Source: Branchiostoma lanceolatum
Taxonomy: Eukaryota; Chordata; Leptocardii; Amphioxiformes; Branchiostomatidae
NCBI RefSeq assembly: GCF_035083965.1
Contig: NC_089738.1
Coordinates: 14,472,734-14,536,733 of the forward strand
DNA length: 64,000 bases
Direction of reading: 5' to 3'
Shown: positions 20,171 through 42,690 of the stretch, piece by piece
Layout of the letters: every line of letters begins with the position of its first letter
Position numbering within the stretch: position 1 is the first letter of the stretch
The notes under the pieces: generated by a model
What the model saw: the letters and a program-made list of their open reading frames with translations, nothing else
The model's database searches: none
What the model was told of the DNA's origin: nothing
Made by a program: the position numbers and the translations under genes

Positions 20171-20970
20171 TTTTCTTTTAGAGGTACTGAAGGAGGTTAC
20201 TGTGCACAAGCATATATCCGTTTGACGATTATTTTATGCAACAAATCGGTACACAATGCACATAACACTACTGTATATATTGTGTATGAAAATTCGTTCC
20301 AGGCTTTACCATTACAATTTCCAGGGTTTGACAAATGAGTGTAGTACACTGTACTTTGGTGTCCAGGAATGACACATACAGACCCTTCCTCAAAGCACTG
20401 TAATCTTGTACCGCCACAAAACGGGTATAAGTTGATATATCCATCAAAATTCCACTTTCTGTGTTGATTGAACAATACTACCTACTTTTGTACTTCAAAA
20501 TATACTTAATCAATAATAATTGGTTGGAAAATTAAAACAATAGTCGCAGTTGCATCGCTAACCTAAATAAAAGACAATCAACTTTTTACGCTTGGTTGCA
20601 GTTTTGCACCTGTCAGCTATCCCGCCAGATGGCTGATGGGCAATTTAGACTATTCTATACTGTTAAAAGGGGGGTTCCTGAAAAACTTGACACAAAATAA
20701 CACGCTTGAACCTTAATAAAAGTAATTTTCCCCATTCTAATTAGATTTAGCATATATAATGTTTAGATGTTTTATCTCTATTATATATTTTCAAAACGTG
20801 ATTAAAACTTGTGACCACCTTGTTTCGTTGCAAAATATTTGAGTGGAAGAGTCCAGAATGTTAGGTCAACGTACGTGAGGTCATAGTTGCAAAAAGTTGC
20901 AAGTTGTGCAAGGACATTTTGCATCATTTGGGCTCGAGTTTTGCAGCTGCCGCGGAGGTTTAGCGGCAGG
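20171..20970. promoter_or_regulatory. Divergent intergenic region between SPRYD7 and the selenoprotein gene
   Basis: 800 bp between opposite start codons. Both ends are GC-rich and the middle is AT-rich. A YY1-type AAAATGGCGGC overlaps the SPRYD7 start. I see no coding exon. Shared regulation is possible but not shown. Confidence 0.4.
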
Positions 20971-23900
20971 ATGGCGTCCGGAGGGGGAGAAAAGCCCCTC
21001 ATGAACATAGACGTGGTCTCAGACGTGATGTGACCCTGGTGTTGGGTCGGCAAGAGGAAGCTAGAGGTAGGAAGTTTCTCTACAAGATAGCTCAACCAAC
21101 TTTGACAAAGTTTTGGGGGGCGTTCCTTCGTATCTAGGACCTGGACCATTTGGCAAGGCCGTCAATTGATAGGATGTTCCTGTCAATAACTGTTTTAGGC
21201 ACTATTGACAGGATGTACCTAGTTCCTGTCAAGAAGAGGGTTTTTTAGGCACTATGGACAGGATGTTCCTGTCAATAAGAATTTGTTAGCACTATTGACT
21301 TAGGTTCCTTCGATAAGGCCTCATGATCCTGTCAACCCTAACCTTGGCGGCCCTCAAGAATCTATCGTTAATCATTTTCAGTCTTCCTAAATTTACTGAG
21401 CGTTCATGACGCTATGATGATGTCATCATAGCGGGGAATTAAATCACGCGAGACCACGAGAGCCAACGAGAACTGGCCCGGTGACGTCACGCAGTAAGCA
21501 GAGAAAATCCTGAGCCGACACGAACGTTCGGGGTTTTCGAGCCGGGGATCGGGCTTCTAACGCCGTGCCGATAGCGGACAAGCACTCACACATGGGCAAC
21601 ACTCAACACCACGAAAGCGAAATACAGCCGCAAGGTAAGAAGCTAACTAGCGGGCTTACCAGAAAGTCACACGATAGAGTTGTCAGAGAAGTTGCATGGT
21701 CACACGAGTTTGTATTCTCAGCTACCGCAGCCGTTACACATGAGAACTTGACCATAGATCAACTTGTCGCCGGGGAAATGGCAATCATCTTGAGCCAACA
21801 AACCAATCACATGGAGAGCACAAACAGGGGGCACATTCTGCGCGGGTTGATGCTAGACTTACCCACCTACACATTCGCTGGAATTAAGAACTTTTATAAA
21901 GTCTTGTTCATACACGTGGAGCATGGTATGCTGCTCATTGATTCAAGCAGCACCCTGTCTGAAGTCAACAAGCTCAAAGAAGATCACCTTCGCCGACCCA
22001 CATGTGACTCAAGGACAAGCAATGTAATGCAGGATGATGCAACGTCTGCAGGACAGAGTGGACATCGACGAAGCACATACTACTGCTCAAGATTTCAAGC
22101 AAACACCTGCCAGTTCACTGCAGATCACGTGGCGGCATCTGGCATCCTACACATACATGCATGCAAGTACTGCGCACGTTTGCGGCCAGATGTGAATGCT
22201 GATCACCCAGCCAAGAATTGTCCACACAAGAGAGGAAGAGATGACAACCACTTTGCTGCTCGCGACAACCTCGCTTGACTAACACCGGGTTGCAGTCCAG
22301 GCGCAACCACTCTGGCGACGACATTGACCGGACATACGAGTACAAACTTTATCCATTTTCCGGAACTCTTAACCCACAAACTCTCCACAAGCACAATAAA
22401 GAGCATTCGCAATTCCTTACCTGCTCCGAAGCCCTCTCCCCAGATAACGACGGCGAGCAGTCACCTTCCACCACCTGTCGCGGAGCAGCACCCCAGAGCC
22501 GCCGACCCTGTGGTCAACGGCGACCAGTTATGCGTGACCTCCTACCCTCAAGCCCTCTCTCATGGAAACGACGGCGAGCACTCATACGCTCTGAAGCCCT
22601 CATCGAGAAAGACGGCAAGCAGGCACGTGGGGAATCCAACTCCGACGCCCTCTCTATGCGCGACCTCCTACCCTCAAGCCCTCTCTCATGGAAACGACGG
22701 CGAGCACTCATATGCTCTGAAGCCCTCATCGAGAAAGACGGCAAGCAGGCACGTTGGGAATCCAACTCCGACGCCCTCTCTACTCCCGCCCGTCGTGAAC
22801 CCACCAACACATGCGGCAAGTACGACAACAAGTTCACGGTTTCAAGAGACCATACCGATATACTCAACACATGTGAATAACGGTCAACAGGATTTATGTT
22901 CCTTACGCGAAGCCGTTCATCCTCTATGCGTGACCTCCTACCCTCAAGCCCTCTCTCATGGAAACGACGGCGAGCACTCATACGCTCTGAAGCCATCATC
23001 GAGAAAGACGGCACGTGGGGAATTCAACTCCGACGCCCTCTCTACTACCGCCCGTAGCGAACCCACCAACACACGCGGCAAGTACGACAACAAGTTCACG
23101 GTTTCAAGAGACCATACCGATATACTCAACACACGTGAATAACGGTCAACAGGATTTATGTTCCTTACACGAAGCCGTTCATCCTCTATGCGTGACCTCC
23201 TACCCTCAAGCCCTCTCTCATGGAAACGACTGCGAGCACTCATACGCTCTGAAGCCCTCATCGAGAAAGACGGCAAGCAGGCACGTGGGGAATCCAACTC
23301 CGACGCCCTCTCTACTCCCGCCCGTCGTGAACCCACCAACACATGCGGCAAGTACGACAACAAGTTCACGGTTTCAAGAGACCATACCGATATACTCAAC
23401 ACACGTGAATAATGGTCAACAGGATTTATGTTCCTTACACGAAGCCGTTCATTCAAGCTCGCCACGACTTTGCGCTCTCCGCGTACCACATCCCGGGAGC
23501 GAACAACAGGTTGGCAGATGCTCTGAGCCACTGGCACACAAACCCGAGTTACCAGCGTCAGTTCTACACCGAAACTGCAGAGGAGACCTGGACAAACATA
23601 CGAGTCCAGCCAGCGCGGTTCGAGTTTACACACACCTGGTGAGCTCCGCATGATCTTCAGACACACGCAGATGAACTAGACACATGAGCATAACCTTGAC
23701 ACATGTAGATGACCTCGCCCACAACATTAAATCATCCCTAACACGATGCCTGCCTTTACTCACTACAGGTCACGCCTGGCACGTCCTTGAACGGGATACA
23801 CTCCGAACCCAACAGCAAGCATTCGCGGCTTCCACACGGGCCAACCATCAAACTCAATTCAGAGCATACCTGGCCTTTTGCCAATTCTTCAGCAAGGCTC

Positions 23901-26900
23901 CCATTCCGGCCTCGGCCCACCTTCTGGCTTGCTACGCTCAGTTCCTGAGTCGCTCGCTAAAATCACCTGACACAATTGCACACTACCTCTCAGCAGTGAA
24001 GCTGCTGCATCACTTCCATGGGCACTATCAGTTCAACCTCCAACAGTTCGAGTTACAACAAACTCTGAGAGGGTTGAAAAAGACATTGCGTCATCGACCT
24101 AAAGTTCATCACCCAATCACACCAGAGTTTCTCAAGCAGGCTCGATATTTTCTTCGACTGAATGAACCGAAAGATGCCACCACGTGGACTATCTTATTGA
24201 TCGGTTTCTTCGCGTACCTACGAAAGTCAAACTTAGTTCCCACCTCGGCCAACCGCTTCGACAAAGACAAGCACCTACAACGCCGGGATATCCTGCACAC
24301 AGAGGAAGGCCTCCTCATCCACATCACATGGTCAAAAACCATTCAAGCCAACGAGAGGGATCTCATCGTTCCCATTCTCGCGGTTCCTGGATCGCCCCTC
24401 TGCCCCGTTGCAGCATATGCCAATATGCTACACCTGTGTCCGGCAGCACAAGATGCGCCAGCATTCATCTTACCACCAACTGCACGACAAGGATGCCGGC
24501 CAATGACAGCCTCCATGCTCAACAAAGAACTAGCTCGGTTGGTTAGCAGTGTCGGCCTACCTAAGGGCTACCACACCCTCCACGATCTACGAAGAGGAGG
24601 ATATACGTTGGCTTTCGAAGCCGGGGTGCCCCGCGAGTTACGCAAGCACCACGGGGATTGGCGATCAGACGCAGACTTGCTATATCTCCGGCCGTCCGTG
24701 GAACAAGGCCTACGCGTGCCAGCAGCCATGCGTCGTCTCATCCTTCAACGGACCTGAGATTTGCCTGCACACGGGGAAACTACACCCTTCCACACCATTT
24801 CGGACTCTTTTGGCTCCTTCGGTTTGGCCGTTGACACCGTACCTCTCATGAACAATGTCAGTCTTGAGTTGGAACTTGGATTAAAGACGGTGTCAAATGC
24901 CACAAAGAGCCCGTGTTTCTTGTGTGTTGTTAATTATGACGCTATGATGATGTCATCATAGCGGGGAATTAAATCACGCGAGACCACGAGAGCCAACGAG
25001 AACTGGCCCGGTGACGTCACGCAGTAAGCAGAGAAAATCCTGAGCCGACACGAACGTTCTACCACCACCAACCCCGGCATCGGGCTCTAGAACTTTAACT
25101 TGAAGTTGTTACTCAATTTCTTTATGTTCGTTTGCACTATTTAGAGTAGCCCAGTAGTATAGTAGAATAATTCACTTTTGTACAGCCAACAAGTGGCTAG
25201 TGTGGAGCAGCGCTGTTACGCTTTTTATGCTCTCTGAAACTTTTACGCCTCGCTAGAGAATTCTCGGCGTCCCGTCAGTAATCTGCTAGTACAAAGGGGG
25301 ACATTGCGTACGAAAATTTTATTGTTCTTAGATCCACACAGCTTCGGCTTTTTTATACTTTCTTATTCCGTCACACTGTCGTTTGTCTTATCGCACAAGT
25401 TTTATGTCACGAACCTTTTTTTTTTTTCTGTAAAGTAGTTCGTTGGATTGCCTAGTCTAGGCGTTGACCTTTATACCCTAGCTAGGCCGTTGACACCGTA
25501 CCTCTCATGAACAATGTCAGTCTTGAGTTGGAACTTGGATTAAAGACGGTGTCAAATGCCACAAAGAGCCCGTGTTTCTTGTGTGTTGTTAATTCAGGAT
25601 CCCCCCATGCGGACCCTCAGAAAGCACCCCCCCCCCCCCCCGTAACTTACCCATGTCTTTTCTGTGTTGTACATGTAGGAAGCCATGCGGATGTGTAAGG
25701 AAAAGTACACCTTTCATGTCAGCTGGCAGCCCTACCTCCTTCGACCCAACATGCCTCCAGATGGGATGGAGAAACCTCCTCAGTACAAAGGGTAAGGAGC
25801 TACTGTAAAGCTGTTTATTTTTTGCTGTGACTCAGTTTCGCAGTAGGATAGGAAAGGTGGTTTTCTGGAGTTAAGTTTGCAGTTCAAACAATATCAATTC
25901 TGCAGTGTAGTAAAGAAAATGGAAATGCATATTCATAAAACCACTACAAATGTTTAACGTTACAGATTTACAGTAACTTTTAAGTATTCTTGTTGGATTA
26001 GGAAGTCCTTTCTTTTAACCTCCTTGTTCAAAGTTTTAATAAAAGAAAGCACAAAAAAAGCACAAATGTAGCTTGTTTTGTGATGAAATATTTTACCACA
26101 CATGCTCAATGTTTATACATAATGTTGAATACTGATGTAAAAACCCTAAAGATGTAACTTGCTGATGTTTTACTGTACAATAAATTTTTGTACCATTATT
26201 TCTTACTCTTTTTATTAACGCACCAGGGTGAGCGACCATCTGAAGGCAGCAGGTCAGTCCGTGGGGATCGACTTCACAGGGAAGTGCCCTCGTTTTCCCA
26301 ACACCATCCAGGCGCACTGTCTCCTAGAGCATGCTGGGAATGTACCGGATGGAGGGAAGACCCAGGACAAGCTGGCGGAAGTTCTCTTCAGGGTCTGTTT
26401 GTTTGTTTGTTTGTTTGTTTGTTTGTTTGTTTGTTTGTTTCTCCTGCCATAAGGAGAAAGGAGTATTGAAATGGAAAATTATGATTGGCTTATAGATGCC
26501 TTTTTTATTCCTCTTGAAAAAAGTCTCATTCTGTGTCCAGGATTCTTAAGTTTGTCAAGTGTAATTGAGTAAACATAACTAGAGAGGCTCATCACCAAGA
26601 ACTGCAAAAATGATACCGCCACAGACATTTGGAGACTGACGGTACTTCTCCTTGTCATTGCCAGGCCTACTTCACAGACGGCATGCACCCCTCTGGTTAC
26701 AACCTGGTGGAGCTGGCTAAGGAGGTGGGGATGAGCCAGGAGGAGGTGGAACCGGTCATCACCAGTCAGGAGAACCAGACAGCCGTCTTCAACAAGGCCG
26801 GGCAGTACATGAAGGATGGCGTCACAGGTCATTTGTGTCTCATTGTTAAAACGGAGTTACTTTAAATTCATTTATTTTCGCTGGGATGTAAGTTTTCGCT

Positions 26901-27600
26901 TGGATGTAAGTTTTCAGCAGAAGGGGAAAGGAGGTTTTCAAACTATTTCACGCTTGTAACAATCTTTTTCGTATTGTAGTGATGCATTGGAAATGCATAT
27001 TCCCAGTGTCATGAAATGTCTTAGTATAAAATCACTGCAACATTTCAAGATTTACAGGAGTTAAAAGTAAACTTAAGCTAAAATCCTTTCCACACCGTAT
27101 GGTTTTACTGGGCAGTGCACATCTTTATTTCTATAGCCCTTGGGCTACACAAGCTATGAAAGGACAAAAGCAGGCCCAGTTCTTAGGACAGAATATACCT
27201 TAGACAAAACATTAAATCAGTTGCACACCCATATATTTGGAAACATGTAACATATTTATTTAATACTCAATTCAGGTACAGTTGCTCTATTGGAATATGC
27301 AGAACAGCTGTTAGACATTCAAAAATAGAAGTTCAAAAAGTTAGATATGCAAAACCTCACATACATATCTAGGAAGCCCTGATCAATCATTTTGCTTTTG
27401 TTGAGTTACACAGAGGCCTAGCCAAGATACTGGTTGTAAATCATTGTTATCTTTTCTTGCTAGGCGTGCCGTTTTTCTACATCAACGGCCGACCAGCCTT
27501 CTCCGGCGCCCAGGACCCCGGCAACTTTGTCTACTGTTTCCAGAAGGCAGCGGAGAAGTTTCCTGCTGGAAAGGGCGGGGCCAGTCAGAGCTCCATGTGA
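20971..27600 (+). CDS. DsbA/FrnE-like thioredoxin-fold selenoprotein (UPWC active site)
   Basis: Five exons join in frame: 20971-21066, 25679-25791, 26227-26392, 26665-26827, 27464-27600. This gives 224 residues counting one in-frame TGA at codon 21. Around the TGA the text reads IDVVSDVM-TGA-PWCWVGKRKLE, the beta1/active-site/alpha1 block of FrnE-type DsbA oxidoreductases. The TGA replaces the first (nucleophilic) Cys of CPWC. Later family marks are a helical insert (HVSWQPYLLRP, GQSVGIDFTG, EVLFRAYFTDG) and the cis-proline loop GVPFFYINGRPAFSGAQD. Start: ATG in good context (GGATGG). A SECIS-like hairpin in the 3'UTR supports selenocysteine insertion. Expected role: thiol/selenol disulfide exchange. 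There is no signal peptide, so cytosolic or organellar. Intron 1 holds a Ngaro element. The terminal ATG-TGA might also be recoded, which would add six residues before the next TGA. Confidence 0.88.
21031..21033 (+). other. In-frame TGA, predicted selenocysteine codon
   Basis: TGA occupies the exact position of the nucleophilic Cys in the CPWC motif. The frame is uninterrupted and conserved before and after it, which argues against an intron or frameshift. A Cys-to-Sec exchange is a single-base change from TGT or TGC. Confidence 0.85.
21157..21350 (+). repeat. Minisatellite-like array (GACAGGATGTTCCT family)
   Basis: Three diverged units of about 60 bp, each with AGGATGTTCCTGTCAATAA-like and TTAGGCACTATTGACA-like words, ending in GATAAGGCCTCATGATCCTG and CCCTAACC. 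Sits in intron 1 of the selenoprotein gene, just after exon 1. Confidence 0.65.
21406..21529 (+). repeat. Ngaro split direct repeat A1
   Basis: 124 bp, matching A2 at 24936-25059. It begins with ATGAC and the inverted repeat GCTATGATGA-TG-TCATCATAGC (21411-21432), a likely recombinase core site, followed by CGCGAGACC and GGTGACGTCAC. Confidence 0.9.
21592..22278 (+). CDS. Ngaro gag-like protein with Cys/His-rich C-terminus
   Basis: The ORF has its first ATG at 21592 and is open upstream to 21565. The central part is helical (THENLTIDQLVAGEMAIILSQQ, GHILRGLMLDLPTYTFAGIKNF). The C-terminal 70 residues are rich in Cys and His (YYCSRFQANTC, HIHACKYCARLR, HPAKNCPHKRGRD), a layout of DIRS/Ngaro gag-like proteins thought to bind nucleic acid. 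No frame break is seen. It probably packages the element RNA. Confidence 0.7.
   Translation: MGNTQHHESEIQPQGKKLTSGLTRKSHDRVVREVAWSHEFVFSATAAVTHENLTIDQLVAGEMAIILSQQTNHMESTNRGHILRGLMLDLPTYTFAGIKNFYKVLFIHVEHGMLLIDSSSTLSEVNKLKEDHLRRPTCDSRTSNVMQDDATSAGQSGHRRSTYYCSRFQANTCQFTADHVAASGILHIHACKYCARLRPDVNADHPAKNCPHKRGRDDNHFAARDNLA
22529..23450 (+). repeat. Tandem array inside the Ngaro element, unit about 262-269 bp
   Basis: The word ATGCGTGACCTCCTACCCTC (or close variants) recurs at about 22529, 22656, 22925 and 23187, giving one partial unit of about 128 bp and three units of about 262-269 bp. Each full unit runs through ACGACGGCGAGCACTCAT, GAAAGACGGCAAGC, GGTTTCAAGAGACCATACCG and TGTTCCTTAC..GAAGCCGTTCATCC. 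Units are highly similar. Several frames on both strands stay open through the array because the units lack stops in them, so the long ORFs here are probably not genes. The array occupies the position of the reverse transcriptase. Confidence 0.85.
23430..23642 (+). pseudogene. Remnant of the Ngaro RT/RNase H polyprotein C-terminus
   Basis: After the last array unit, the frame reads a segment with RHDFALSAYHIPGANNRLADALSHWH. This matches the RNase H end of DIRS-group polyproteins (A-x-H-x-PG-x-N-x-x-AD-x-LS). The upstream RT palm and most of RNase H are missing, so it is a truncated pseudogene. Confidence 0.75.
23684..24757 (+). CDS. Ngaro tyrosine recombinase
   Basis: A 357-residue ORF from ATG. 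The N-terminal helical core-binding domain (residues about 45-140, ending LKKTLRHRPKVHHPI) is followed by the catalytic domain. The signature residues are visible: Arg near 180 (FFAYLRKSNLV), His-x-x-Arg near 300-303 (HDLRRGGYT), His in KHHGDW near 323, and the likely nucleophile Tyr near 334 (DLLYLRP). It catalyses integration of the circular cDNA by strand exchange at the repeat junction. No frame damage is seen, so it may be functional. Confidence 0.88.
   Translation: MSITLTHVDDLAHNIKSSLTRCLPLLTTGHAWHVLERDTLRTQQQAFAASTRANHQTQFRAYLAFCQFFSKAPIPASAHLLACYAQFLSRSLKSPDTIAHYLSAVKLLHHFHGHYQFNLQQFELQQTLRGLKKTLRHRPKVHHPITPEFLKQARYFLRLNEPKDATTWTILLIGFFAYLRKSNLVPTSANRFDKDKHLQRRDILHTEEGLLIHITWSKTIQANERDLIVPILAVPGSPLCPVAAYANMLHLCPAAQDAPAFILPPTARQGCRPMTASMLNKELARLVSSVGLPKGYHTLHDLRRGGYTLAFEAGVPRELRKHHGDWRSDADLLYLRPSVEQGLRVPAAMRRLILQRT
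24826..24935 (+). repeat. Ngaro split direct repeat B1
   Basis: 110 bp, appearing identical to B2 at 25485-25594 (GGCCGTTGACACCGTACCTC to GTGTGTTGTTAATT). Directly abuts A2, forming the B-A junction expected for a circular intermediate. Confidence 0.9.
24936..25059 (+). repeat. Ngaro split direct repeat A2
   Basis: 124 bp, appearing identical to A1 and including the 10-bp inverted repeat with TG spacer. Abuts B1 without a gap. Confidence 0.9.
25485..25594 (+). repeat. Ngaro split direct repeat B2 and right end
   Basis: 110 bp, appearing identical to B1. Host intron sequence (CAGGATCC) resumes immediately after. Left and right flanks show no target-site duplication, as expected for tyrosine-recombinase elements. 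Confidence 0.88.
25627..25641 (+). repeat. Poly(C) tract of 15
   Basis: Homopolymer C run in intron 1, about 40 bp upstream of the exon 2 acceptor of the selenoprotein gene. Confidence 0.9.
25801..25974 (+). mobile_element. ACTGTAAAT MITE-like element, full copy
   Basis: Starts TACTGTAAAG and ends GATTTACAGTA, forming imperfect inverted termini. The internal blocks TTTGCTGTGACT, GGAAAGGTGG, AGTTTGCAGTTCAAAC and GGAAATGCATATTC are shared with the other family members. Selenoprotein gene intron 2. Confidence 0.7.
26397..26440 (+). repeat. GTTT tetranucleotide microsatellite at a splice donor
   Basis: Eleven GTTT units begin four bases after the exon 3 donor of the selenoprotein gene. The donor (GTCTGT) is weak, and every unit offers another GT. 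Confidence 0.9.
26858..27058 (+). mobile_element. ACTGTAAAT MITE-like element, second copy
   Basis: Starts TACTTTAAATTCATTTATTT and ends AAGATTTACAG, with the family blocks GGGGAAAGGAGG, GGAAATGCATATTCC and TCATGAAAT. A small internal duplication (GGGATGTAAGTTTTCGCT then TGGATGTAAGTTTTC) is present. Selenoprotein gene intron 4. Confidence 0.7.
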
Positions 27601-27774
27601 ACTAAGAAATCTACCTGACTACCCTAAAACAAGGAGGTCTTAAACCTCCTTGAGCAAGCATTGCAGACATAGTGATTTTAAAAGAGCACTGAAGATGAAC
27701 ACCCTCTAGCAAGCTAATTGTGAACTGCAGTTAGTTCACACTGTCATTATTTCAGCAGACATCATAAGGTAGGG

Positions 27775-28135
27775 CTCGAAATTCATTTTGGGAATAGGCG
27801 CACTGTTGCATCTATCTAACCTGAAAATTCAGGTGCACAGAAAAACAATTTAGTGCACAACATCATGAATGTCAGCAAATCATCAGCTTGAATCTCAAAT
27901 TTCATAGCTAGCTGAGCTTTGTGGTACAACAAAGGTTTATTATCATTTCTGACACTCAAGTGTCAAGAATACGCTGTATAACAGTGTACAATAGGTATCC
28001 TTTAGGTACATAACCCCACACAAATAACTAGGTGCACCAGTGCCTAACCAGTGCACCCTCAGTCATGAATTAGGTGCACAGCATCAATTTTGGGCACACA
28101 AAAGTGTTTATGCACCCAGTGTTTTGAGGCCTGGT
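27775..28135. repeat. Dispersed GGTGCAC-rich repeat in the selenoprotein 3'UTR
   Basis: Starts with GGGCTCGAAATTC and contains several GTGCAC words (AGGTGCACCAGTGC, AGTGCACCCTC, GGTGCACAGC). Related sequence occurs at 61405-61510 (GGGCTCAAAATAC, GGGTGCACTGGTGCACCTAG). It appears to have lengthened the distance between stop codon and SECIS. Confidence 0.5.
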
Positions 28136-28430
28136 AAACTTAATTGATATCACAATCTGTTGGGAAGGACATGTTGCACTTGTTCTGACAATCCTGATTC
28201 TTTCATTGCAGTCAAAGTTTTTCTTTCCTATGCAAGTTGAAATTGCAGTATAGTGGTCATTGCAAAATCAATGCAGATGGACTAAACTTTTCAAATGTTA
28301 ACTGTATCAAAATTCAACCAATCAATGGCTTTTAATGTGTAAATAAGAATGCATTTGATTGGTGGGAGATATGGTGCCTTTGGTAAAGTGACCAGTGGAT
28401 GTGCTTGAGACATGAACTCTCGGCTGCCCC

Positions 28431-28498
28431 TGCCAATGCTACATGATGGCACTGGGCCCAACTGAATGCTCAGTGCCTGATATACTCTGCATTGCATG
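28431..28498 (+). promoter_or_regulatory. SECIS element, form 1-like
   Basis: Foldable hairpin in the order required of eukaryotic SECIS elements. Stem I is CAATGC (28434-28439) pairing with GCATTG (28489-28494). An internal loop follows. The 5' quartet strand ATGAT (28443-28447) faces TGAT (28478-28481). Stem II has 10 pairs (28448-28457 with 28468-28477, one G-U). The 10-nt apical loop CCAACTGAAT has AA at 28460-28461. Twelve bases separate the quartet from the AA. This structure recruits SBP2 and eEFSec to decode UGA as selenocysteine. It lies about 830 nt after the stop at 27600 and just before a poly(A) signal. Confidence 0.87.
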
Positions 28499-28524
28499 GA
28501 GGCTTTTTGAAGCTTGAGAAAAGG

Positions 28525-28530
28525 AATAAA
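28525..28530 (+). promoter_or_regulatory. Poly(A) signal of the selenoprotein gene
   Basis: Canonical AATAAA about 30 nt after the SECIS hairpin, which places the SECIS inside a 3'UTR of roughly 950 nt. Confidence 0.65.
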
Positions 28531-28549
28531 ATGTCTCAAAACTGTTGTT

Positions 28550-30413
28550 ACCCCACGGTGTCATTTTTACTATCTTAAAATATTGTGAACAGATACATTC
28601 ATCTGTCTTTTCTTATTCTTTCTCATAAGTATTCATTTTAGATTACAGAAACTAAAATAAAGTTCTGTATATCATTTTCAGTGATAGTATTATTCAATTA
28701 ACATTCACATGTGTTCTGTAAGTTTTATCATTTGTAAAACCTTCCTGGCCACTTAGATTTTCTTACTGAAGGCAACTTGTTTTCCCAACTTCTTTTTGCA
28801 CGCTCGTATTAGTTTGGAGAGTCCAGAGGATGTCATCCATATACATGTAATCAAACCATGGCAGTAAGGCCTAGATCCTTTCTAGGTCTAAACGATAAAA
28901 AAATTCCATGACGCAAACTCTTATGTACCAAGTCTGGATCATTTCACTTGTTTATTTTATCTAACACCGTTTTGTGTGTAATCGCTCCGTGTCGGATTTC
29001 CTTTCCGCCATGTTTTGACGCCATGTTTGTATGTAAGTACCAGTGTCTCCGCGCATGGCCAACTCCGCTTGAATAGAAACCTCTAAAAGCATCAATAGAT
29101 GACGTCTAGAGCATTACCGGGCGCTCCACAATACGTTCAATGCTCGGGAAGTTTTCTAAACAGTTCCTCAAGGCTAAAAGAAGTTGTTGTTTTTGTCAAT
29201 CTTTGTTTATTACAGAGTAGAGCTGCATTCCATTGTACCCTTTGAGCTCAGTCAAATGCGTGTCAAACGTCACGGCCTGCATGGCACATTTTTGCGTATA
29301 CATGTATTCAAGTCCATATGAGTTGCGTATTGAAATTCACGCAAGTTGCTATCTATGTCATTTTATTTTGTCAAAGGAAGTCGCAAGTATATTATATTGT
29401 ATTTATTTATTAGTTTGGCATGAACACGTTGTTACATGAACAGCCAGGGTTGCCCAACGAGCGAATGACTATATATATATTTTATAGTATCATAACCTCC
29501 ATTTCAATAAGGCTCGTTGCATGATATGTAAACCTTGCGATGTTCCATTGAAAGTTGGAGCGCTAACGTTTACGAAGCTAGTACTTAATTCTGTGTGGTC
29601 TTTTTGTAAGTTTGATATACGTCATCATAGTATAAAGTAACAAAATACAGGGTCAGAATGTAATGTTAGTGGGGAGTAAACATTGCCAAAGGTTTAAGAA
29701 ATAAACCAAGGTTTTCGTGGATGATATGTAGTTACTATTGCTAACGTAGCCATCTGCAATGTAGATCCAAATGCAATTTTTGGCTTTCACATATCTGTCA
29801 AAGATATAGCGACATGTTTTTGATACGGGGACCAGGGATTTGCAGTATTTGAAGTTGAGTCATGTGCCAAATATAGCTCCTGTTTTCGCCTAGCGAGTAC
29901 CAAAATGGGGTTTGTATAAACGCGAGCTTGTTTCACCAATGCAAAAATATAGATGGAGGTTCTCTATTTATCCAACACTTCCTTTCTACTCGCCTAGCTA
30001 CTAATACGTCAGCGGGGTTGACTTTTGTGTGACATCAAACACGATTCCCGACCACTCGCTGACCCGTGCCGCCCTGTCAGAACCGTATTTACTAACCCGT
30101 ACTTCCTACCAGTCAGCTGTCGCTGGTTGCGGGTTGAAATGTTCAAACTGTCCCGTCGCGCTAGACCGTAAATGTGTGTTGTCTTTTTTACCGACTTGTG
30201 CAAACTTTTCTTGTCATGGTTTAACCATTGACGTGGGAGTAGAGGTCATCAGATAACTCGGGTGTCCATTTCCGAGTTTTCCCGCGCCAGACTCAGACGT
30301 CAGCGGGTACACCCTACTTTATACCAGCGTATTTACAAACTACAAATGACGGCAATCGGACTTTGAAACGTTTAACAGTGACCCGGCAAGCCGGTGAACT
30401 TGCCCCCAACAAC
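28550..30413. other. Intergenic and upstream region of the GEF gene
   Basis: No conserved exon recognised. AT-rich until about 29900, then more GC- and CpG-rich toward the start codon at 30414, consistent with a promoter and 5'UTR. A short TA run is at 29470-29485. Confidence 0.35.
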
Positions 30414-36826: not shown

Positions 36827-37048
36827 GTTCGTATTGTTTTGCTATTTTTGCCGTTTTCTCGTTAAAGTCTCCTCAACTGATGTTTAAAAACTTAAAATGT
36901 CCGTACATATTGAGCTTTAGTTTGAAACTGTTAGCATATTTACGCTTGTTTAAGCAAGAGAAGTGGATATTTTGTCACTGACTATTTGACATTATGAAAA
37001 TGATGAGGTAATGGCGTCGAATTTGAAAACGTTTAACTGTCTCTACAG

Positions 37049-40000
37049 GCAAACGGGCCAGCCATCCCGCGTCGCCGGGTCCTACCGCCACCAAAACCCG
37101 AGTGATCGCTGCCAGTCCACGACTAGAGAAAATTCTGACAGAAAACGGCGAAGAAAACAAGACTAGAAGACAAAATCTGACCAAAGAACCGAGCGCAAAC
37201 GGTCCCGGCCGCCACCGACATGCGGACGTGACCGCCTCCCAACCGTTTTCGAAGAAGTTGTTGCTACTAACGGAGGAGCACAAGTCCCGCTCAGAAAAGA
37301 AATCCCGCTTACAGAAACTGGTCTTCGGTCGCAAAGGTAAGCAGGATATTCTTGCTAAAAAGCCAAACGGGATAGAAGTCAAGAAAATCGGCCCAGGTTC
37401 AGATAAAGTCGACGAACCCCTACCCTCTTCCGGTTTACATTCAGGGACGGATCTTGATGTAAACAAAATCGATAAAATCAGTAATGGGAAGGGACAGGTT
37501 CCTGTGGTACCCAACTCTGCCTCAGATTGTACAAAAGAGGATGGCGTGTATGTACTCCCATCTAAACAGAAAGTTTCAGTCTACACTATAGACAAAGGAG
37601 AGGAAGAGACATGTGAAAGAGTGAGCAACACAGGGCAAGATATTGAACTTCCTAGGAATAAAGACCAACACGTTAGTGAGTCAACTGTTTTCAGTGAGCC
37701 TCCAACCATCGTAATAGACTCGAATGAGGACCCAAAGCCATCTGGAAAAGCCAGGAAGGTTCTAGGATATGTTTCACCTCTACCGGTACCTAAACCGTCT
37801 TTTGGTAGAGCTGACCAATCAGAGAGGTCGGTAGACGCTGCCTTGGACGACTCCACTTGGAGTATTTCGCTCGATGACAGCACGTTTAACACCAGCAGTG
37901 TGTTTAGCAAGAGTTTTCGGGAGAAGTTCAGCACGCCTGCATCGGTGCGGAAGTTTGCACGGAGCCACTTGGCCAACATTTTTACACCTCGCAGTCATAG
38001 CAAGGCTTCAGATCGCAAGAAGCCCTCCATCGTTCATCTGCATATTCCTTCGGATGTCGACATCGGAGGGAACGACAACACTCAGAGCTACGAGACTTCT
38101 TTTGTAATCGCAGAAGCTTTGGAGAATGTCGTGCCGAAGGATATAACGAATGCTCCGCCTAAGTCAAAGAAAGGGTTGAAGTTCGATGGCAAGGCAAACA
38201 GAGAGATGGAAAACTCCGACCAAGGCAAGCAAAGTGCAGGTGCTGTCCGTCAGAAGGAGAGCACTTTAAAAGGATCAAAAGAAGAAGTGCCTGTCACACC
38301 AGCCAATAGGGTTGTTAGGTCACGACATGTAAGTACACCCACTACACCACGTTCAGCAAGGCCGACAGGTATTCCAACCCCGGTGAAGAAGCGATCGCAA
38401 TCAGGAACCCCACAAAGATCAAACACTCCAAGCACACCTGTTAAAAGGGATTCCAATCTCTTACATTCAGGTGTTAGCGACAATGCAACTACTGGTGTCA
38501 CTAAAGATAAGGATGTAACAAGTGGAAGGACCACCAGCAATGCACCTACAAGCAAGCAAGGTGCACCGAAGAAAGTGAGCAATGCACCATCCCTAAAACC
38601 TTCGCTTGCCAATGGAAAGCAAAGGACCACATCAACAAGCAAGGGTCCTAAAAATAGCCAAAGCCTCAAGCCTGTGAAGAAAGTAAGCCAGGAGTCAAGA
38701 GTTCGAAAGGAAATTGGGAAAACAAAGACTCCACAGAGCCAGAAACAACCACCTGCAAAACCACAGACAGAAAAACCAGCCACGCATGCCAGGCGTCGAC
38801 CAAGGGCAGCAAGACCCAAAACAATGGTCATCAACAGTAGAGATATAGTGGAGATACCTTTGAGCAAATCCAACTCACAGCCAGACCTAACAACAGATGG
38901 CATTGATGAAACAGATGCTGTCATTGCAAATAGCAGGCCAACAAAAGAAGAAGAAGAATCATCTAATACAAGCACAAAAGAGAACTCAGTGTTAGAGCAT
39001 CAAAAAGCCCCAAAGGTAGCTAAAAAGGATTTGCTGAAAGTCCCAGATAGAGTAACAACAAGGAGAAGCCTTGCGAGGCCGGAAAAGGGTGTAACAACAT
39101 CTGTGACAAAGAAAACTTCGTCTGAAGAGGTTGACCCAGCTGCAACTCGGAAAGCTAGCCAGCGAGCTGCCCGGAGCCTGGTCACCAATGCTAAACGACA
39201 GAGCCTCGGGGTAGGGAAAAGGCGAAGTGTTACTCCCGCGAGAGGGCCACATCAATCTCAGACTGATAGCGGAACGAAATCTACCGGTACAACCAGGAGG
39301 GCTACGCCTTCCAATGGAGGAAGGAGATCTCTTTTACCCCAACCGCAACGGCTAACTCCCTCCAACTCAAGCACTCCACCAACAAGAGTCAAGAAAAATT
39401 CAACCGATTCTTCTTCCTCAGACAGAAATGCAACAAGGGATGTTGTAACGCCACATGAAGAAAAGTCAAAGGTCAAGAAGTCGGTTGCACCAGGGAGAAG
39501 TGTTTTATCAAAAGGTCCCACACCGGTGTTGGGTAGTAACGCAAAAGGTAAACAGGAGACATCCACTTCTCGTAAAGTTAGAAACGTGGTACCGGCCAGT
39601 ACGGAGCAAGTGCTGAAAACTGCAGCAGAGGAGAAAGCAAGGAGAAGATCAGCACCTCCTACCGCTGGCACAAGACCCAAGGGACAGTCTACTACTCTTG
39701 AGACAAGAGGTAGTGTACAGAGACAGACTAGAGTAGCACAAAGGCAAACAAGAGTCACAAAACCAGACAGGGAAAGCAAGCAAGGCACAAGTGACCTACT
39801 TTCTAGCAATAGAAACAATAACACTTCAACAGGAAGACAAACTGCTGAGAAAGCAAGAATTGTTTCATCAGTGAGTTCATCAAATGACTCTATGAATGAC
39901 TCTAGTGCTGTAAAAGGCACCGATGCTGTGGTGAATGACACTGGAGAAATGCAAACAACTGTTGTGACCCATTGTACAGAAAGTGGGGCTAAGCCCCAGG

Positions 40001-42135
40001 GCATCACAGTGGATAATTTGATTACCACTAATGCAGACAATGGAGAGAGCTGTGGTCAATTAAGCCCAATTAGTGATGACCCCCTGGCAAGTAATATTGT
40101 AAGCGTGGACAACTCAATAAAAGGGAGTTCACACGAGCCATTGAAGGAACACAATGCAGAAGAATTGGCAGACAAAAGCCAGGATGTTAGCTGTACCTTG
40201 AGCGACAGCAGGACTTTTGATGCTGTGCCATCCGCAACGGAAAATGTCGCCGGATCAAAAGAGTTGTCAGTGGTGAATGCGATTATAATGGAAACATCTC
40301 CACAGACCGTGAACAATTCAGATCAAAATGAAGTTCAGCAGGCTAGTTCAATGGAAGAAAGTCCCACTGCAAATGCATACACCTTAATAAATCCTAAAGT
40401 GGATCATAGCGAAGATGTGGATGTTCCCATGAAGCTTTATGTCCCTGTAGACAATATACAGGGTGAGGAAACAACAGAGTCGAGTTCCCATGTAAGTGGA
40501 CTAAACACAGCTAAGGAGGTGGTAACCAAGCAGGAGCAACAGTCGAGTGGGATTAATACAGGCGCCGACAAAGAAGAAACAAAGTTTGTCCAGCTGAAGA
40601 TCCAAGAACACAGCGATGCAGTCATCTATGAAATGCTCGATGTGCGACTAGAAGAACAAAAAGTTGACGGACAAGTGGAGAATGAACAGAAAGAGGAAGA
40701 CGTGTCTTGCGTACAAGCTGAAAGCGACAGAGGTAACGATGTCAGAACTCGGCGCCGGGCCATCCAAGCTCCGGAATGCTTTACTTCCACCCTACAGGTG
40801 AAGCTGAAAAGTCAAGGGAATGAAAATACGCAACTAGACACCCAGGAGCAAAGTACCCAGGATTTGACCTGTAATGGTTCTTCATCAAATATAAAGCCAT
40901 TCATGGATTGGAAAAGTGATAATGAACTTCCAGAAGACGTCAGTCAGAGTTCCGGTGCTGACCAGAGCAAATATTTGCGTACAACGACGCGTAGTGGAAA
41001 AGACCAAGTCACGTGCAGTGTCGTGGAACCAAGCATGAGTGCCACACCAGATGACGCTGATACCACGGGCCCAAAGGAAGTTGGTAAACAGTTGTCAGAG
41101 GACACGATAAGTGGCGTAGATGATTTACCAAGGTCAACACGACCTTGTGACAGGGACGACGTGCTTGACGGATCGCTCTCATCACGCGGTTTGAGGCGTG
41201 CACATGGTACTTTGTCCCTCGACAAGTCCAAAGGACAAGTTAGCAACATATTTGACAGCCCAAACAACATTACAACAGCTATGGGCATGGTGTGTTTAGA
41301 CAACATGCACTCTGAATTATCATCAAAGGATGGGCGTTCCATGCCACAAAAGCTTAAAAACGATGACAACGATGAAACGACAGATGCTGAAAATATCCCA
41401 GAGGTACTGACTGTTGATCTAGCAAACACTCAAAAGTATGAAACAATGCTCAGACCAAACGATATACCACAACTGTCACAACGACTTGCAGACCATGACA
41501 CAGAGCAGGAGGCTGAACAAATACAAGAGGAAGACAACGTCAAGGCTAATTGCAAGACGTTTCTATTTTCGGAGCTTAGAAGTCCGCCGTACAATCTAAT
41601 AAAAGACCAACCCCTTCATTCGAGTTTACCCAACATAAACGGTGGTGAGGTTGAAGGGAAATTGGCAAGCAGAATGCCTTCCCACATGCCAATGAGTTCC
41701 CCGCCACCTGTACGAAGACGCAAGTCGGTCTGTTTCGCGAGCTGCCCAGCTAGTCCTACGGCAGGAGCGAAGTTGCGCCGACGGCACAGCAGCTACATCC
41801 ACCCATCCCTGATGGGCCACCTGCATCACCAGTCGCTGTCGGCGGTGGATCGCCTCTATCCAGACGGACATCTGCGGCGGACGCTGTCTCTCTCCGGCGG
41901 CCACACGCCGTCAGAGCTCTTGTCGGGACAAACTACTCCGAGCACAAGGGGCAGCCATCCCGAGCTTCACCTCAGTCCTCTGGTGAAGAGGCTACAGGAG
42001 CTTTGCGAGGAGGCTGAAATGGAAGAAGGGAAGAGGCTTCGGGAACTTTGCGAAGAAGTCCAGTGCGAAGAAGGACATCGGCTTCACAAACTGTCCGAGG
42101 AGGTCGAAATGTCTCAAGAAGAAGCATTGAATGAG
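37049..42135 (+). CDS. Rho-GEF gene (ARHGEF4/SPATA13/ARHGEF9 group), giant disordered exon
   Basis: A single open frame of about 5.09 kb runs from an acceptor (CTCTACAG at 37048) to a GTGAGA donor at 42136 and encodes about 1695 residues. Composition is low-complexity and polar: Ser/Thr-Pro-Lys-rich basic segments in the first half (RSARPTGIPTPVKKRSQSGT, NAKRQSLGVGKRRSVTP), acidic Asp/Glu/Ser-rich segments in the second, and a conserved-looking C-terminal part (PPPVRRRKSVCFASCPASPT, GHLRRTLSLSGGHTPSELL). Many R-x-x-S and S/T-P sites suggest phosphorylation, and the basic half could bind microtubules or membrane. It ends in a charged helical triple repeat. Phase 0 at the 3' end fits the exon at 56094. 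Linkage to the SH3-DH exons is inferred from phase and style. Confidence 0.75.
41986..42120 (+). repeat. Three tandem 15-residue (45-bp) charged helical repeats in the GEF
   Basis: The units 41986-42030, 42031-42075 and 42076-42120 encode KRLQELCEEAEMEEG, KRLRELCEEVQCEEG and HRLHKLSEEVEMSQE. Leu/Cys/Val spacing suggests an amphipathic helix, possibly coiled coil. Confidence 0.85.
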
Positions 42136-42690
42136 GTGAGAAATTTTGGAAATGACAAAGTAACCTCGATATTATATACTGCTAAAGCTTTAGTAAAGTC
42201 TATGAATAGTATGATGCTATTACTTGTATTTCTAGAGCAAATGGTGTGACTGTCACAAATTGTGGCTGCAATTGCTTTTGAGGTTTGTTTAATTTTTTGC
42301 TGTTCAAAAACAGTTAAAGATAAGCTCCAATGTACTTTCTTTGATCAGTAAAATATTTGAATTTCATTATTTAAAGTATAATTACAACTTTTCTAAAGTA
42401 AATGTATATGTTATCAAAAAGCAGTGGTTGGTAAGAATGAAATCACGAACAGTGCTTGTGTGAGACTGTGACTTCAGTTATGGGCGTGTATGTGTTATGA
42501 GTACACGGTAAGTTTGGAATGTTAACGGTAGTTGTAGTTTTGTGTGGGCGTTCACCTGGGAAAGGATGTCAGAGGACGGTTCAACTGTAGTCTAACTGTA
42601 GCCAAATTCAAATCCCGGGATGACCAATGTACAGAAGAGCGCATGTTTGTATCCATGGGCGCAAAGGCACTTTGTTTATGATAATCAATA

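Follow-up and report, generated by a model that had tools for sequence, protein, structure and literature searches.

The stretch of DNA analysed here (the window, 64,000 nucleotides) carries at 20971-27600, on the forward strand, a gene that a splice model resolves into five exons separated by GT-AG introns, with the reading frame kept throughout. Exon boundaries were set by eye from frame and splice signals, and all five exons were recovered when the spliced protein was compared with the window by tblastn. No second copy of the gene was significant in the window, the three remaining tblastn hits having E values of 1.9, 4.6 and 5.7. The spliced exons comprise 675 bases and encode 224 residues, with a single internal TGA and a terminal TGA. 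The translation of exon 1 reads MASGGGEKPLMNIDVVSDVM, followed by the internal TGA and by PWCWVGKRKLE; this TGA, at residue 21, is the sole stop within the 224-residue reading. Upstream of the ATG the frame is closed, the nearest in-frame stop being a TAG at 20884. A preliminary description of this DNA had reported the exon 1 block with its in-frame TGA and four more in-frame exons including the sequence GVPFFYING; the block was found as described, and the exons all join through GT-AG boundaries. The coordinates of these features, and of those discussed below in the 3' region, are collected in Table 1.

Table 1 Features of the candidate selenoprotein gene and its 3' region (positions in the window)
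Feature	Position	Strand	Basis
Exon 1: start codon, U-P-W-C active site (if TGA is read as Sec)	20971..21066	+	donor GT at 21067
TGA predicted to be read as Sec, residue 21, nucleophilic Cys position	21031..21033	+	alignments with bacterial and PDB relatives
Exon 2	25679..25791	+	GT-AG boundaries, in frame; tblastn
Exon 3	26227..26392	+	GT-AG boundaries, in frame; tblastn
Exon 4	26665..26827	+	GT-AG boundaries, in frame; tblastn
Exon 5: GVPFF loop, terminal TGA stop	27464..27600	+	acceptor AG, in frame; tblastn
SECIS-like core: ATGAT, 10-bp helix, loop with unpaired AA, TGAT; lower helix flanking	28443..28481	+	fold, pattern scan
AATAAA, possible polyadenylation signal	28525..28530	+	3' of SECIS-like element

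Intron 1 (21067-25678) consists mostly of one mobile element, at 21406-25594, which has split direct repeats: A1 (21406-21529) is repeated as A2 (24936-25059), and B1 (24826-24935) as B2 (25485-25594), each pair being 100% identical. By eye, we take the frame at 21514-22278 to be gag-like and that at 23675-24757 to be tyrosine-recombinase-like; neither frame gave a Pfam match, and no full reverse-transcriptase frame was seen between them among the open frames listed. From its split repeats and these two frames the element looks like an Ngaro/DIRS-type retroelement, and we judge it to be young because its repeats are identical. Inside it, 22526-23452 holds four copies of a 269-base unit; measured against the reference copy, the other three show 62%, 74% and 97% identity.

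The spliced protein matches the Pfam family DSBA (PF01323) over residues 13-203 with an E value of 9.7e-31 and a score of 107.5 bits (cut-off 25.6), and gives a weak match to Thioredoxin_4 (6.1e-5). No NCBIfam family reached its cut-off, the two hits both lying far below theirs. A search of PDB matched four sequences: the top ones are named FrnE protein (E about 1e-23), and the others are SCO1869, a putative DsbA oxidoreductase (3e-12), and VP2116, an uncharacterised protein (1.5e-4). In all four, the TGA is aligned with the leading Cys of CxxC. The window protein resembles the FrnE of PDB entries 5cnw and 5cp1, which we take to be that of Deinococcus radiodurans, in its DSBA-type sequence, in the alignment of UPWC with CPWC and in the GVPFF loop; it differs in that FrnE has Cys where the window protein would have Sec. 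The sequence GVPFFYING in exon 5 aligns both with the GVPFF of FrnE and with VPxF in all five bacterial relatives of a separate alignment, and this VPxF loop is presumably the cis-Pro loop. A C-terminal CXXXXC is absent from the translation of the window protein, whereas D. radiodurans FrnE has one; the motif occurs in many FrnE members, not all (PMC8945050), and it appears optional for the subfamily because the FrnE proteins of D. maricopensis and S. roseofulvus also lack it (PMC8945050).

The bacterial relatives came from collections of prokaryotes, viruses and plasmids. Pattern matches numbered 23 in prokaryotic genome contigs, one of them a relative; among plasmids 786 records had a match, and four relatives were taken from among the matches listed; the pattern search of viral contigs gave no relative. 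The five aligned rows are two annotated genes (L003, L005) and three match stretches. Their active-site motifs are CPWC or CPFC, and the column of the TGA is Cys in 5/5, a count that says nothing about how frequent Sec forms are in bacteria because the queries had Cys at this position and the first pattern contained it. The relatives aligned here are bacterial, and conservation of the TGA among animals is taken from published papers. If the TGA encodes Sec, the active site near the N terminus is UPWC. As expected of a selenoprotein gene, the in-frame TGA occupies the position of a redox-active Cys, and the coding sequence is conserved on either side of it. The preliminary description had placed the TGA exactly on the nucleophilic Cys and had proposed aligning the five-exon translation with FrnE/DsbA proteins; in the alignments with the four PDB sequences and the five bacterial relatives, the TGA falls in the Cys column.

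A SECIS was sought downstream of the stop. Rfam reported none, either across the whole window at the gathering score or within 27400-29400 up to an E value of 10, where three other families appeared far below their cut-offs; folding and pattern scans were therefore applied instead. A scan of the 64 kb with a SECIS pattern, on both strands, gave as its only match the SECIS-like core of Table 1, a well-formed element of eukaryotic type, and a more permissive scan of the 1000 bases immediately past the stop again gave this element alone. Its ATGAT and TGAT form the two sides of a non-standard quartet, and its helix of 10 base pairs includes one G-U pair. The 80 bases at 28425-28504 fold with -33 kcal/mol; shuffled sequences average -22.49 (sd 3.2), which gives a z of -3.28, and none of 200 shuffles was as stable. 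Sixty shuffled whole windows averaged 0.45 pattern hits of 8 pairs or more and gave four hits in total of 10 or more; none of 2000 shuffled versions of the 1.8 kb 3' of the stop contained a pattern match of 10 pairs. The SECIS shuffle counts are post hoc, since the pattern was written once the candidate had been spotted by eye. Given the AATAAA that follows it, the element would fall within the 3'UTR; a second AATAAA lies at 28656. The fold and our own pattern point to a SECIS element, and its placement in the 3'UTR would follow from an extent marked by the AATAAA. The downstream SECIS-like hairpin that the preliminary description named without coordinates is most likely this element. ARAGORN found no tRNA genes in the window.

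The TGA could be read in another way, as the result of a nonsense mutation or a sequencing error that turned TGT or TGC into TGA, the gene being otherwise a normal Cys-FrnE. TGA differs from either Cys codon by one base, and the aligned bacterial relatives do carry Cys. However, of 224 positions the stop hits precisely that of the nucleophile, all other codons are open, and a suitably placed SECIS-like element follows downstream. In addition, the published B. floridae gene has both a Sec TGA and a SECIS (PMC2874816). We consider a mutation or error highly improbable, and our assessment agrees with the earlier claim that Sec is likelier than a nonsense mutation, on the grounds of the TGA on the nucleophile, the open codons and the element downstream.

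A DsbA/FrnE selenoprotein gene of the amphioxus type is already known, having been reported in 2010; the present observation is real and not new. That paper, Jiang et al. 2010 (PMC2874816), describes Sec-containing DsbA proteins from three animals, Ciona intestinalis, C. savignyi and Branchiostoma floridae. The ORF of the B. floridae gene was assembled from ESTs, which did not extend to the SECIS, and SECISearch found an AA-type SECIS in the genome downstream of the DsbA ORF (PMC2874816). By description, the window gene is like this gene in belonging to the DsbA family and in having predicted Sec for the upstream Cys of CxxC, its codon in the first exon and an AA-motif SECIS-like element past the ORF. 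It is likewise similar to the genes of both Ciona species, animal genes with a SECIS in which Sec replaces the upstream active-site Cys; the Ciona SECIS is of form II with an extra minihelix, and that of C. savignyi has CC for AA (PMC2874816). According to Jiang et al. 2012, B. floridae has one DsbA selenoprotein and 40 selenoproteins overall, and Sec-DsbA is widespread among marine invertebrates, two of the six species studied having Cys forms (PMC3473315). FrnE (DsbA) is among the selenoprotein families in SelenoDB 2.0, whose main text mentions neither amphioxus nor Branchiostoma (PMC3965025). For Archaeplastida, one study records Sec-FrnE from Mamiellophyceae and from M. viride (PMC6627142).

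The earlier annotation of the B. floridae gene, BRAFLDRAFT_120127, mistook exon 1, which carries the Sec codon, for 5'UTR, lacked the last exon and ended instead with two long exons to which the authors knew of no similar EST or protein (PMC2874816). Misannotation of this kind, with translation started after the TGA and the active site missed, is what had been predicted for the window gene. The old model lends itself to a second alternative, in which exon 1 really is 5'UTR and translation begins 3' of the TGA, at the first Met in exon 2; leaky scanning could yield such a product. Against this, the active-site motif and its flanks align with FrnE relatives, a similarity that nothing would maintain in a UTR, and the resulting protein would be shortened and devoid of the catalytic motif. 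We give this alternative very little credence. Further along the forward strand, at 37027-42249, lies an uninterrupted frame of 1740 codons that gave no Pfam match up to E 0.001; it is possibly a giant exon of a neighbouring gene, and, as a guess, it could correspond to the long exons in BRAFLDRAFT_120127.

The locus is almost certainly an intact animal gene for an FrnE-type DsbA thiol oxidoreductase with Sec as the nucleophile, produced by SECIS-directed recoding of UGA. Insertion of Sec at the TGA appears by far the best reading of the sequence, since domain, TGA site, open exons and SECIS-like element are concordant, and a DsbA/FrnE-like selenoprotein, as originally proposed, is the best-supported identity of the product. 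In eukaryotic Sec insertion, a SECIS directs SBP2, eEFSec and tRNA-Sec to a UGA codon. Gene structure, family, TGA position and SECIS-like fold were read directly from the window, and from these we infer transcription, recoding, redox chemistry and location of the protein as follows. The SECIS in the 3'UTR of the transcript would recruit SBP2, eEFSec and tRNA-Sec, the standard eukaryotic machinery, and ribosomes would insert Sec at codon 21, a UGA, and stop at the terminal TGA in exon 5. Selenocysteine would thereby take the place of the nucleophilic Cys of CPWC, giving U21-P-W-C24, and in the enzyme, which is probably cytosolic, the selenolate would attack disulfides and C24 would resolve, as in Cys-FrnE.

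If the window comes from another Branchiostoma, the gene would be an ortholog of the known B. floridae Sec-DsbA. It is conceivable, if somewhat doubtful, that the window does represent a Branchiostoma other than B. floridae, and hence an independent ortholog in which the TGA and a SECIS have been retained and a recent retroelement insertion in intron 1 is tolerated. The locus confirms published work and adds no new kind of system. It is an example of a gene that standard annotation got wrong, as described for B. floridae (PMC2874816), and it offers a clean example of a selenoprotein family, Sec-DsbA, that two papers report as missing from vertebrates (PMC2874816, PMC3473315).
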